64,000 bases of DNA from Nitrospira sp. MA-1. Lineage in GTDB: Bacteria > Nitrospirota > Nitrospiria > Nitrospirales > UBA8639. Below, piece after piece: positions 21,695-26,646 of the stretch (the stretch's first letter is position 1; the number at the start of each line of letters is the position of its first letter). The notes below the pieces were generated by a model, which saw nothing but the letters and a program-made list of their open reading frames with translations, did no database searches and was not told the DNA's origin. The DNA lies in NCBI GenBank assembly GCA_032139905.1, contig JAQJDB010000007.1, positions 806,001 through 870,000 of the forward strand. Reading direction: 5' to 3'. The position numbers and the translations under genes were made by a program.

Positions 21695-22723
21695 ATGTCG
21701 AAACCTATCAACCGTATCGGTGTGATCACTGGAGATCCCAGACTGGCTGATCCGACTAAGCGCAATTCGCAATATAATGAAGAGGATACGGCGACGCACA
21801 ATGCGATGAAGGCCGCCTTTCAGGAGCTTTCCGACTATACGTTTTTGTTTTACGACGATCACACTCGTTTGTTCGAGCAGCTTCAGCAAGACCGTCCGGA
21901 TTTAGTTGTCAATTTTTGCGATACGGGGTTTCGCAATGTGCCTGCTCAGGAACTCAACATTCCTGCGTATCTGGAGATGCTGGGGATTCCTTATAGCGGG
22001 GCTCCGCCGTCGGCCATGGTTATCTGTTTTGATAAAGCCATTGTCCGGCTCGTGGCCCAGTCGCACGGCGTCCCGGTTCCGCGTGAGTATTTTATCGACT
22101 GTGGAGCTTCGCTTGATGCATTGCCCGATTTTTATCCTGCGCTGATTAAACCCAATGCGGCTGATGGGAGTGTAGGTATTACGAAGGATGCTGTGGTCCG
22201 GTCGCCGGAGGAAGCGAGCAAGTATCTCCAATGGCTGCGCTCGACACTTCCCGGTCGTGATGCGCTGATGCAGGAATATCTGCCAGGCCCGGAATACGGC
22301 ATCGGCGTGATCGGCAATCTTGAAACGGATTTCTGTATCCTGCCTCCTCTGGAAGTTGATTTCTCGCGTCTTCCCGCTGGACTCGATCCGATTTTGTCCT
22401 TTGAATCGAAGGCGTATCCTGACTCCCCCTACTGGACCGACATCAAATTCAAACAGGCGGTGCTTGATCCGGGTCTTGAGGATCAGATGAAAGACTGGGT
22501 GCGGACCTTGTTCAGGAGGTTCGGGCTGCGCGACTATGCGCGGTTTGATTTTCGCGTCGGGTCGGATGGTAAGCCAAAGCTAATGGAGGTGAATCCGAAT
22601 CCGGCCTGGGCTTACGACGGGAAACTGGCCTTTATGGCGGGATTTGCAGGAATCAAATATGGAGAGATGTTACACACGATTCTTCAGGCGGCCATCACCC
22701 GGTTGTCAGTTGCAACCAGTTAG
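21695..22723 (+). CDS. ATP-grasp ligase related to D-alanine-D-alanine ligase
   Basis: The 342-residue protein has the ATP-grasp elements in order: an N-terminal Rossmann-like part (GVITGDPRLADP, LVVNFCDTGFRN), LIKPNAADGSVGIT as the ATP-lysine and glycine-rich loop (about 153-166), MQEYLPGPEYGIGVIG, and LMEVNPNPAWA with the metal-binding Glu and Asn near 310. The N-terminal third differs from true Ddl enzymes, and the gene is not near cell-wall genes. It probably makes a peptide-like bond on an unknown substrate. Its stop overlaps by four bases the stop of the convergent hydrolase gene. A good AGGAG site precedes the start. Confidence 0.82.
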   Translation: MSKPINRIGVITGDPRLADPTKRNSQYNEEDTATHNAMKAAFQELSDYTFLFYDDHTRLFEQLQQDRPDLVVNFCDTGFRNVPAQELNIPAYLEMLGIPYSGAPPSAMVICFDKAIVRLVAQSHGVPVPREYFIDCGASLDALPDFYPALIKPNAADGSVGITKDAVVRSPEEASKYLQWLRSTLPGRDALMQEYLPGPEYGIGVIGNLETDFCILPPLEVDFSRLPAGLDPILSFESKAYPDSPYWTDIKFKQAVLDPGLEDQMKDWVRTLFRRFGLRDYARFDFRVGSDGKPKLMEVNPNPAWAYDGKLAFMAGFAGIKYGEMLHTILQAAITRLSVATS

Positions 22724-24753
22724 AGGAGCGACCGTGGAATCGCCAGTGCCCAGTCATGTCGTTTGATGAGTTGATCGCCATGATAGGCTTCCAATTCTCC
22801 CGCAAACTGAAAGGTTTCGGTCGTGGCGGTGAGCCGTGTCCGACACTCCAGCCAAATCGACCAGTCTCGCCGTTTCAAGTGGGCGGTCTGCGTTAATTCG
22901 GTCTGAGCCGACAGCGCATCTTTTTCAAGAATGCGATACCGTTTAAAGAGGGTGTACCCCACATCGAGATCGATCTCTTCAATCCTGGCGTGCGATGCGC
23001 CGTCAAATTCTCCCCCGTCACTCCGTAACGTGTAGACCATTTCGTTGCTGGCGAGATCGATCTCAATGGTTCGCCGCATGCTGAGTTGCCGCAGTTTTTT
23101 ATGCGGGGTGCCGGGCGCGGCTTCGGGTGGCCCGAACGGCCGTAGGGCTTCGTCTTCCTGGCGGGGAGGGCGCACGGGAAGAGTCACATTGCTCATCCCG
23201 GTCCGGACGGTCATTGTCACAGGAAAGGGTGGCGGCCAGGCAATCGGCCAGTAACTGGTGGACAGAGCGAGTCTGATCCGGGAGCCCGGAGGGAACGCAT
23301 GGGCGAAGTCGTTGAGTTGCACACGTACCTGATACCATTTGCCTGGCTCCAGGGGCTGGGGTGTTTCATGACTCTCGCGATGTGTGAGATTCAACAGTCC
23401 GTACGTGACACGCAGAACGGACCCGTCGGGAGCGACTTCTCCGAGACGGACAGCGATCATCGCCACCGGTTGATTGACGCACAGATCCAGTTCCACGACC
23501 GGTGCGCCCAAGACTTCAAGTCGTTCGGTGAGGGGATCACTATCGAAGACGAGCGAACCACCATCGTCGGGTCGTTGATCCCGCGGCATTTCTCCATCCG
23601 CGCCGAATCCGCACCATTCTCCGGACCGGACCCCGGTTGTCTGAGGTGAGCAAAACGACAACTCCGTGGATTTCTCAGGAATAGGAGAGAGATGACCCGG
23701 TTCCAGAAACCACCGTTGTTCGCTGATGCGAGGGCTCGGCCAGGTCTCTTCCGCTATCCATCTGCCGGGCCAGACGGCGTATTGGGGTTGCGGCGTCTGA
23801 CTCTCTTGCATCCATACCCGAAAAGCGGGTTCATCCATGATTCCTGTCTTCTTCCCCTTCAGCCAGTGGTCCCACCACCGGACGGCTTCCTGCAGAAAGC
23901 CGATGGCCGGGCCGGGGACGCCGTCATGCGGAAAGACATGGGCCCAGGGACCGATGAGCGATTTTTTCGGACAGGAGAGATGGCTCATCATTCGGGGGAT
24001 GGCATTGGTATAGCCATCGGCCCAGCCTCCGATGGCATAGACCGGGCAGCGAATGGCGTCGTAGTGTTCGCACACCGACCCGTGTTTCCAATAATTGTCT
24101 CGCGCTTGGTGTCGCATCCAGACCACGGGAAACGGTTCGAGATTGTTTAACCGTTGCTGCCACATCTCCCACCATTGGTCGCCGACAATTTCCGGATCGG
24201 GCGGCAGTGCCGAGTACAGGGTCAGCATGGAACCCCATTGCATATTTTCGTTCAGGAGGCAGCCGCCCATATAATGCGCGTCATCAGCGTACCGGTCATC
24301 CGTTGAACACAAGGTAATAATGGCTTTCAAATTCGACGGATTCCGGGCGGCGACCTGGAGCGCATTAAATCCGCCCCACGAAATCCCCATCATCCCGATC
24401 GCGCCCGAACACCAGGGTTGTTTCGCAATCCAGGTGATGACTTCCAGGGCGTCGTCATGCTCCTGATGGGAGTATTCATCATGCAGGATCCCTTCTGAAT
24501 CCCCTGATCCCCGGATATCCACGCGGATGCTGGCATAGCCATGCGCCGCAAAATAGCGATGGATGGGCTCGTCCCGTGATCGCATAAAGTCCCGTTTGCG
24601 ATAGGGGAGGTATTCCAAAATGGCTGGAACCGGCTCCGTATCGGCTGACTTCGGTAACCAGATGCGCGCGGCGATGCGACATCCGTCCGACATCGTAATC
24701 CAAGTGTTTTCGATTTCGGTAATGCGGTCGAGGATGGTGTAATCGATAAGCAT
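22720..24753 (-). CDS. CocE/NonD-family (peptidase S15-like) serine hydrolase
   Basis: The 677-residue enzyme has an alpha/beta-hydrolase domain with nucleophile Ser125 (MGISWGGFNA), an acid residue in YAIGGWADGYTN and His in GPWAHVFPH. A C-terminal jelly-roll domain typical of the X-Pro dipeptidyl-peptidase C region follows (about 380-560), plus an extra roughly 100-residue tail. Such enzymes cleave esters, acylated compounds or X-Pro peptides. No signal peptide is seen, so it is probably cytoplasmic. The gene lies 14 bp after the ATP-grasp-like gene, implying one transcript, and faces the ligase gene. Confidence 0.9.
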   Translation of the reverse strand: MLIDYTILDRITEIENTWITMSDGCRIAARIWLPKSADTEPVPAILEYLPYRKRDFMRSRDEPIHRYFAAHGYASIRVDIRGSGDSEGILHDEYSHQEHDDALEVITWIAKQPWCSGAIGMMGISWGGFNALQVAARNPSNLKAIITLCSTDDRYADDAHYMGGCLLNENMQWGSMLTLYSALPPDPEIVGDQWWEMWQQRLNNLEPFPVVWMRHQARDNYWKHGSVCEHYDAIRCPVYAIGGWADGYTNAIPRMMSHLSCPKKSLIGPWAHVFPHDGVPGPAIGFLQEAVRWWDHWLKGKKTGIMDEPAFRVWMQESQTPQPQYAVWPGRWIAEETWPSPRISEQRWFLEPGHLSPIPEKSTELSFCSPQTTGVRSGEWCGFGADGEMPRDQRPDDGGSLVFDSDPLTERLEVLGAPVVELDLCVNQPVAMIAVRLGEVAPDGSVLRVTYGLLNLTHRESHETPQPLEPGKWYQVRVQLNDFAHAFPPGSRIRLALSTSYWPIAWPPPFPVTMTVRTGMSNVTLPVRPPRQEDEALRPFGPPEAAPGTPHKKLRQLSMRRTIEIDLASNEMVYTLRSDGGEFDGASHARIEEIDLDVGYTLFKRYRILEKDALSAQTELTQTAHLKRRDWSIWLECRTRLTATTETFQFAGELEAYHGDQLIKRHDWALAIPRSLL

Positions 24754-24767
24754 CAAAAATCTCTGAG

Positions 24768-25754
24768 TTATTCGACAGTCTGTTCATGGCGTTCCGCAGC
24801 GGAGTCGCGGAGAGTTTTTGGAGCGGGGGGGCGATTGGGTTGAAACTGATGAGTGGACCAAAAACTCAGCGCCAGCTTTTTTCTGACTTCGAATCCCGTT
24901 TCAAGATCCCAGCAGTTGACGATAGCCAGACGAAATCCGCCTGGTGGCATGGAGTGGTCCTTCGGAGGTTTCTCTTCGTGGAACGTGATCTGAATGCTGG
25001 AGACGTGTGGTGTTTGGCGCAACTGGGCGATCACGTCTTTGGGTGGATGCTGATAGTGGACGCCATGGGCGCCAAACAAGACGACACTGTACCCTTCCTG
25101 TCGATGGGAATCATCAAATTGCCATTGTTCTTCCGCATACAGCCGAACGAGGGACCCAACCCAACCGGCGCCGTACAAATCCGGCCATTGGTCTGCGAAT
25201 CGTAAATGTACCTCGATGATTTTGCCGCCGATCGTCTCGAAGTTAATCATGCCGGTGTATCCGGCAAGATGCCGGCGCAGCCAGTCGCCGCAGTAGGCTT
25301 CGATGGTTGGAAATGGCGTTGCCAACACCGTCCAATAATCAAACATTCCTCCTTCCAACGGTTTGCCCGTGGCATGTCGCCACCAGTGGGGTTCGCCCTT
25401 AACCACGGCGACGTCGCTGGACACATGATCGCCTTGGAGTAACGGCATCCACATATGTCCCGGCCGTTCCAAATGTTTGTATTCTTTTAACGAACGCAAC
25501 ACGCGGCTCCCGGCACCCATGCCGCGCATGTTGTAAATCGGTTTGGAAAACACGGGAAAGAAGGATGGATCCAGCCCATGCGGAGCACACGCCAGGTTTT
25601 GGCTCTCGGCAATCATCAGTTTGTTATAGATCCACTTGTACTGTGGGTACCATGCCCAGGCATCGCCGTCCTCGGTAGGGATGTTGACTTCCGGCGGGCA
25701 TGGAATGCCCTCGAAATACTGCATTCTCCAGGGATCAGCTTCACAAATCGGCAT
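24768..25754 (-). CDS. Hypothetical protein, possible degenerate ATP-grasp
   Basis: This 328-residue protein is not recognised with certainty. The central part (GKPLEGGMFDYW, HLAGYTGMINFETIGGKIIE, then VHLRFADQWPDLYG) resembles the final strands of an ATP-grasp fold, where Glu-x-Asn-x-Arg is expected. Here the sequence is E-V-H-L-R, with His in place of Asn. No clear glycine-rich loop is seen. ATG 25754 is chosen because GAGG lies upstream; the frame also opens with TTG 18 bp earlier. It is the first gene of the operon with the CocE-type hydrolase. Confidence 0.55.
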   Translation of the reverse strand: MPICEADPWRMQYFEGIPCPPEVNIPTEDGDAWAWYPQYKWIYNKLMIAESQNLACAPHGLDPSFFPVFSKPIYNMRGMGAGSRVLRSLKEYKHLERPGHMWMPLLQGDHVSSDVAVVKGEPHWWRHATGKPLEGGMFDYWTVLATPFPTIEAYCGDWLRRHLAGYTGMINFETIGGKIIEVHLRFADQWPDLYGAGWVGSLVRLYAEEQWQFDDSHRQEGYSVVLFGAHGVHYQHPPKDVIAQLRQTPHVSSIQITFHEEKPPKDHSMPPGGFRLAIVNCWDLETGFEVRKKLALSFWSTHQFQPNRPPAPKTLRDSAAERHEQTVE

Positions 25755-26241
25755 GCTCGCCTCTTCGTTCAATATTATTCATCTCTGACGTGGAAGCCGT
25801 ACCATACCCAGTGAGATGGAGTCATGCAACATGCCTTTTCTCTCATCTGCAGCAGGTTCATCACCTTGCCCGAGGCCTTGGGAATTCTCACTCCTCATAT
25901 TGCAGCATCCTACCCACGAATTCTTTTGAGCTATCACGTACAGTTGAGTGGGGTGTTCCCCTGCGCGGTCCGCCACAAGTGGACGCAATGCATGAATCTT
26001 CTTGGTTCCCAGCACATCCGGAGAGATGTCCGGGAATAGACGAATCCATGCTCGAGTAGACAAAAGTATCCATTTCAATCAAGATGGGAATGTCTCATGA
26101 TGTTTGCTGTAGTCTTGGAAAAAATTGAGAAGCGCCTGTGCCGCATGTGAGGAGGAAAATGAAGAACCAGATTATACGAGTGGAAAAACAGTTTTCAGTT
26201 CCTTCCGACATGATTATTACCTTAAAGAGAAAGGACCTGCC
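25755..26241. other. Intergenic region with a dispersed repeat
   Basis: No gene is supported. The notable structure is the first copy of a roughly 75-bp repeat shared with 32528-32606. The rest holds the promoters of the two divergent neighbours, which I cannot place. Confidence 0.5.
26025..26100 (+). repeat. Dispersed repeat, third family, copy 1
   Basis: Shared blocks with 32528-32606: GATGTCC, then ATAGACGAATCC, then AAAAGTATCCATTTCAATCA, then GGGAATGTC. Order and spacing are conserved to within one base. No reading frame is conserved, so this is a non-coding repeat. Confidence 0.7.
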
Positions 26242-26646
26242 ATGAGTTTTTTCAGCAAAATCCTTGATAAGCTTGGTTTCAGCGGCTCCGAAGCCCAGGC
26301 TGCTCCTGCCCCACAATCACCAGCACCCAAATCCCCGGCTCCGCAGGTTGCCCCTGCTACCCCGGCACCTTCACCTGGAACCCCAGTGGTGGATGTCAAA
26401 GGGAAACTCGAGGGCCTCGCAGCCTCGAACCCCCAAAAGCTTAATTGGAAAACTTCGATTGTGGACCTGCTGAAGCTCCTGGATCTCGATAGCAGCTTCA
26501 CAGCTCGTAAGGAACTCGCGACTGAGCTCGGGTGCCCGGCTGACAAGATGGGGGATTCCGCCCAGATGAATATGTGGTTGCATAAAACCGTGTTGCAAAA
26601 ACTGGCCGAGAACGGAGGCAATATTCCGAAGGAACTTCTGAATTAG
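26242..26646 (+). CDS. DUF3597-domain protein
   Basis: The 134-residue product starts MSFFSKILDKLGF, has a Pro/Ala-rich linker (about residues 19-52), and ends with the DUF3597 domain: LNWKTSIVDLLKLLDLDSS, ARKELATELG, MNMWLHKTVLQKLAENGG. The domain resembles LysM-linked or stress-related proteins and has no known enzymatic role. The frame is open from 26125, but ATG 26242 with AAAGGACC upstream matches the usual family start. Confidence 0.85.
   Translation: MSFFSKILDKLGFSGSEAQAAPAPQSPAPKSPAPQVAPATPAPSPGTPVVDVKGKLEGLAASNPQKLNWKTSIVDLLKLLDLDSSFTARKELATELGCPADKMGDSAQMNMWLHKTVLQKLAENGGNIPKELLN

Follow-up and report, generated by a model that had tools for sequence, protein, structure and literature searches.

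A candidate cassette for a peptide-like metabolite in Nitrospira: two predicted ATP-grasp ligases and a CocE/NonD-type hydrolase

What could two ligase-like genes and a hydrolase gene be doing side by side in the genome of a nitrifier? The question was raised by a 64,000-nucleotide stretch of Nitrospira sp. MA-1 (the window; contig JAQJDB010000007.1, forward-strand positions 806,001 to 870,000), in which an earlier note had singled out a Ddl-related ligase gene (here called lig), a serine hydrolase gene (hyd), and a gene of no recognized family (unk). The note proposed that these genes make and break down a peptide-like molecule. The best fit to the predicted folds, catalytic sets, linkage, and shared history of the genes is a three-gene cassette, spread by horizontal transfer, whose enzymes make and recycle a small peptide-like metabolite with an amide linkage. 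The chemistry, the common pathway, and its direction are what we infer from that evidence, and we put the chance that this reading is right at about even. The features are as follows, numbered by window position.

21695 to 22723, plus strand: lig, a Ddl-related ATP-grasp ligase of 342 amino acids (aa), matching PF07478 (Dala_Dala_lig_C) at 3.8e-13.
22720 to 24756, minus strand: hyd, a CocE/NonD-type serine hydrolase of 678 aa (Peptidase_S15 and PepX_C).
24768 to 25754, minus strand: unk, a protein of 328 aa with a predicted ATP-grasp fold and an apparently reduced N-terminal part.
22720 to 22723: overlap of the convergent lig and hyd stops; the tail-to-tail order was also found in relatives.

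The lig frame started with ATG at 21695 and stopped with TAG at 22721 to 22723, and hyd stopped with TAA at 22722 to 22720 on the minus strand. The two stop codons therefore overlap, and both this and the gene coordinates agreed with the earlier note. The unk frame ran from ATG at 25754 (MPICEADPWR, kept in relatives) to a stop at 24768 to 24770, with hyd directly downstream on the same strand. The hyd frame was listed from TTG at 24756, its true start probably being ATG at 24753.

The protein for which least could be said at the outset was unk. Searches against Pfam, NCBIfam, and PDB sequences, profile searches included, returned no family and no meaningful PDB match. An AlphaFold2 model built with a 30-sequence alignment reached a pLDDT of 87.5, compared with 69 with 11 sequences. 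By structure comparison, the model matched GAR synthetase (Z 20.9, root mean square deviation 2.9 over 283 residues) and the dipeptide (L-amino-acid) ligases BL00235 (Z 19.9) and BacD (Z 19.4). Biotin carboxylase and PurT were further structural matches, and PylC and RizA were among the top Foldseek matches. All of these were ATP-grasp enzymes, several of them carboxylate-amine ligases. On the evidence of the model, unk is thus an ATP-grasp enzyme whose closest counterparts are GAR synthetase and the L-amino-acid ligases; this bears out the suspicion that the product of 24768 to 25754 belongs to this fold. Approximately the first 65 residues of the model were helical and without Rossmann strands, the first ATP-grasp strand appearing at residue 68; hence, the pre-ATP-grasp domain appears to be missing or strongly reduced. 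The aligner nonetheless paired this N terminus with the pre-ATP-grasp part of GAR synthetase. No plasmid relatives of unk were found.

The earlier note had read E-V-H-L-R in unk, where E-x-N-x-R is expected, as the mark of a degenerate ligase. The motif is indeed present, at residues 181 to 185, and forms part of a signature E173...E181-x-H183-L-R185. In a family alignment of 30 members with 36 to 89% identity to the window protein, K71, N171, E173, H183, and R185 were invariant, so that His183 replaced the Asn of the ExN motif in 30/30. E181 was kept in 28/30 members (E or D in 29/30), and K45, the putative linker lysine, in 29/30. Because E-x-H-L-R is invariant in the family, it is a fixed signature and not decay, and a degenerate second ligase was ruled out. 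For the ATP-grasp superfamily, two lysines, an acidic residue, and the ExN motif have been listed, with the Asn now and then replaced by another polar residue (PMC4431377). Judged from the alignment, the catalytic set of unk is intact apart from the family-wide His for Asn.

For lig, the Dala_Dala_lig_C match and nearest solved relatives, VanA and Ddl (DdlB), supported the kinship claimed for it. Its N terminus proved as unusual as described, a conserved ITGD..D..K....Y.EED motif standing in place of the Ddl N terminus. The ATP-grasp residues K152, R283, D285, E298, and N300 were invariant in 13 aligned members and correspond to DdlB K144, R255, D257, E270, and N272. DdlB S150, Y216, and S281, which we take to be substrate residues, were replaced in lig by G158, A240, and G309. 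G158 was kept in 12/13 members (one Ser) and G309 in 11/13 (two Ala), while A240 was variable. A plain D-Ala-D-Ala ligase was thus ruled out, since most Ddl substrate residues are replaced despite an intact ATP-grasp core and the best score against the NCBIfam Ddl models was 83 bits, short of the cut-off of 243. The kinship with VanA and Ddl, the closest solved relatives, would suit a role in cell-wall modification, in which, on the pattern of Van-type systems, a variant peptidoglycan (depsi)peptide is made by lig and trimmed by hyd. Against this stand the three substitutions and the fact that no VanX, VanY, VanH, or mur gene was recognized adjoining the cassette, and we give the cell-wall explanation very little credence indeed.

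The sister clade of lig consists of fusion proteins of ~650 aa, which carry a Methyltransf_25 domain and have the ligase as their C-terminal half; this clade usually occurs without unk. Of 372 alphaproteobacteria, about a dozen carried such fusions (L128:9415-11355, L057, L081, L120-L130), and SAR324 had them as well. No family model covering the fusion was found. At L057, the fusion lies directly before unk. A search of the genomes with all three genes for the fused methyltransferase as a separate protein yielded only generic methyltransferases. A Ddl-like ATP-grasp protein with 29% identity to lig is encoded on a Thioflavicoccus mobilis plasmid (L152; NC_019941.1), where its gene forms a row with those for diaminobutyrate aminotransferase, SbnA, and ornithine cyclodeaminase and is adjoined by a KamA-family gene; the row looks like a pathway for a diaminopropionate-containing dipeptide. 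A tandem pair of Ddl-like ATP-grasp genes, with 27 to 28% identity to lig, was found at L085:3291-5185 and a similar pair at L092.

The assignment of hyd to the CocE/NonD-type serine hydrolases was upheld by matches to Peptidase_S15 (2e-66), PepX_C (6e-43), and CocE_NonD (4e-76) and by a TIGR00976 score of 257 bits, above the cut-off of 66. The catalytic triad is kept (S126, D247, and H273), and the protein carries an extra C-terminal part of ~150 aa. The hyd subfamily is large, multi-copy, and often linked to transporters, and one genome can hold as many as 15 matches; in two alphaproteobacteria (G406 and G231), 14 to 15 high-scoring matches were counted in a single genome. Paralogues of ~50% identity adjoin peptide-type ABC transporter genes in Aureimonas, Phyllobacterium, Ketogulonicigenium, and Paracoccus, and these transporter-linked copies sit on alphaproteobacterial plasmids.

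Such paralogues raise the question of whether the cassette is instead a salvage module, in which a scavenged compound, acylated or peptide-like, is cleaved by hyd to yield an amino acid or acid, and lig and unk re-conjugate or detoxify the product. The transporter linkage and the copy number of the hyd subfamily would fit this, as would the peptide-type ABC substrate-binding genes found near unk at L055, L060, and L069. In the tree, however, the cassette hyd formed a clade of its own, separate from the transporter-linked paralogues, and no transporter or uptake system was seen among the open reading frames read beside the Nitrospira cassette. Salvage is rated as rather unlikely.

Do the three genes belong together at all? 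They were found linked in genomes of several phyla. The trio with unk-hyd convergent on lig occurred in Nitrospirales, in several alphaproteobacteria (Kiloniellales-type metagenome-assembled genomes, Afifella, Oceanibacterium, and others), and in gammaproteobacteria (L167 and L168). It was rearranged in SAR324, where the lig homologue is a methyltransferase fusion ~5 kb from unk-hyd, and at L055 lig lies ~4.5 kb away from unk-hyd. Among 60 relatives, lig orthologues (70 to 93%) were confined to G000 (C7; the Nitrospira-type window genome), G011, G019, G028, and G032, and in each of these five genomes unk and hyd lie beside lig. The remaining unk carriers, G013 and G018, had no lig orthologue in the assembly; both are fragmented drafts, the former with unk and hyd on a 3.3-kb contig and the latter with a 29-residue unk fragment at a contig end. 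Within a Nitrospirota sample of 296 genomes drawn, unk was present in two only, both of the window's own genus, and 21 of 385 alphaproteobacteria carried it. Genomes with both lig and unk numbered 6 among the alphaproteobacteria, against ~1 expected, with the genes linked in each (hypergeometric P of ~1e-4, shared ancestry uncorrected). Every one of the three families was also found without the others, as would be expected of neighbors without a shared pathway that were moved together by chance. Nevertheless, the same order was kept from Nitrospirota to Gammaproteobacteria and the trees are congruent, and this explanation appears highly improbable; an arrangement conserved across phyla points to more than chance.

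The lig, unk, and hyd trees agreed, and in them the Nitrospira sequences fell within the diversity of the alphaproteobacteria, near the same Kiloniellales-type sequences. The lig- and hyd-linked unk proteins formed largely one clade, whose branching matched that of lig and hyd. The G+C content of the cassette was ~54 to 60%, higher than that of most flanks (44 to 54%). Given the congruent trees and the higher G+C, the simplest reading is that the cassette was transferred whole, and the three genes probably moved as a unit between distantly related bacteria.

In the proposed cassette, lig and unk would be two ATP-grasp carboxylate-amine ligases. Each, going by fold and residues, would turn a carboxylate and ATP into an acyl phosphate, which would then be condensed with an amine. 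The hyd product, presumed to be cytoplasmic, would act on the same compound or a related one, in which it would cleave an amide or ester bond to turn the compound over or to release a building block. The earlier note's reading, a peptide-like molecule that is synthesized and turned over, remained the best one. The trio is linked, but it is not an obligate set. Several observations weigh against the proposal. The lig gene is on the opposite strand and so lies outside the unk-hyd operon, the Asn-to-His exchange in the ExN motif of unk may alter its chemistry, and the lack of a visible uptake system counts here as well. In addition, 15 of the 21 alphaproteobacterial unk carriers had no lig orthologue, and hyd was often absent too.

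The preponderance of alphaproteobacterial carriers without lig would also be expected if unk were a hub, that is, a protein- or metabolite-modifying ATP-grasp enzyme with its own role, joined in some lineages by lig and hyd as optional partners. Other partners of unk point the same way, namely egtB-egtD at four loci, an epmA-like gene at L069, and a glutamine-synthetase-family gene at L070. Yet those unk proteins whose genes are linked to the other two fall largely in one clade, which branches congruently with lig and hyd, and we hold the hub explanation to be unlikely. The make-and-recycle cassette can also be put in a fuller form. In that form, unk founds a new ATP-grasp family, with E-x-H and nearly no pre-ATP-grasp domain, and together with the Ddl-like ligase and the CocE-type hydrolase makes and recycles a previously unknown peptide-like metabolite. 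This metabolite would be methylated in the lineages whose methyltransferase is fused and would be tied to osmotic or redox stress; the genes would have passed between phyla as one cassette. So extended, the proposal is tentative, possible rather than probable.

Other neighborhoods of unk were varied. At the Rhizobiales-type loci L058, L060, L061, and L066, unk is divergent from the ergothioneine genes egtB-egtD, and the unk proteins of these loci group together. At L069:7593-10293, efp, the epmA-like gene, and unk stand in a row, with unk starting 1 bp after the epmA-like gene, while at L070 unk precedes the glutamine-synthetase-family gene. A RimK gene adjoins the trio at L168 and lies near it at L009, an MFS transporter gene precedes unk at L003, L005, and L165, and at L004 unk and hyd are separated by an RloB/RloC-like pair. 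MscS and TerC genes are next to some copies. The RimK, MscS, and TerC neighbors are hints only, since the loci are too few and MscS is common; together with the MFS and Rlo-type neighbors, they hint weakly at a role linked to osmotic or envelope stress. The methyltransferase fusion of the lig sister clade and egtB-egtD beside unk are further weak hints to a role. Upstream of unk in the window lies a DUF3597 gene (26125 to 26646), whose position is conserved in four genomes of the genus. No tRNA or Rfam elements were found in the window.

The earlier note had considered the locus a candidate for an undescribed pathway, and it still is one. No description of the cassette was found in the literature searched, which was mostly without subscription papers, so that an earlier mention is possible. 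As far as could be tested, this combination of genes and the unk family are new, the pairing of an ATP-grasp amidoligase with a hydrolase being already known. The unk family adds to the ATP-grasp enzymes one that lies outside the Pfam and NCBIfam models. The small, testable gene set, which nitrifiers share with marine and soil proteobacteria, is a candidate source of a new peptide-like metabolite, and at 4 kb the cassette is compact enough for whole-cassette expression to be feasible.

Each member can be set beside a known enzyme. With DdlB and VanA (PF07478), lig shares the ATP-grasp domain and the matching catalytic residues K, R, D, and E-x-N; it differs in its replaced N-terminal substrate motif, in the change of S150, Y216, and S281 to G, A, and G, and in having a methyltransferase-fused sister clade. 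The model of unk matched GAR synthetase, BL00235, and BacD over the whole chain (Z 19 to 21), whereas identity to GAR synthetase, the L-amino-acid ligases, and PylC was ~10 to 20% with no detectable sequence match, and unk differs from them in having ExH for ExN and, apparently, almost no pre-ATP-grasp Rossmann domain. The domain order and Ser-Asp-His triad of hyd are those of cocaine esterase and alpha-amino-acid ester hydrolase (PF02129 plus PF08530); its ~150 extra C-terminal residues and its linkage to ATP-grasp ligases set it apart from CocE/NonD hydrolases. As a whole, the cassette shares its logic with the ATP-grasp/protease systems RimK-RimB (RimBK) and RloA-RloB-RloC (RloABC), the latter tied to osmotic stress, in which an ATP-grasp enzyme is opposed by a hydrolase (PMC12239564). 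It differs from them in its ligase families and in using a serine hydrolase where theirs is an aspartic protease.

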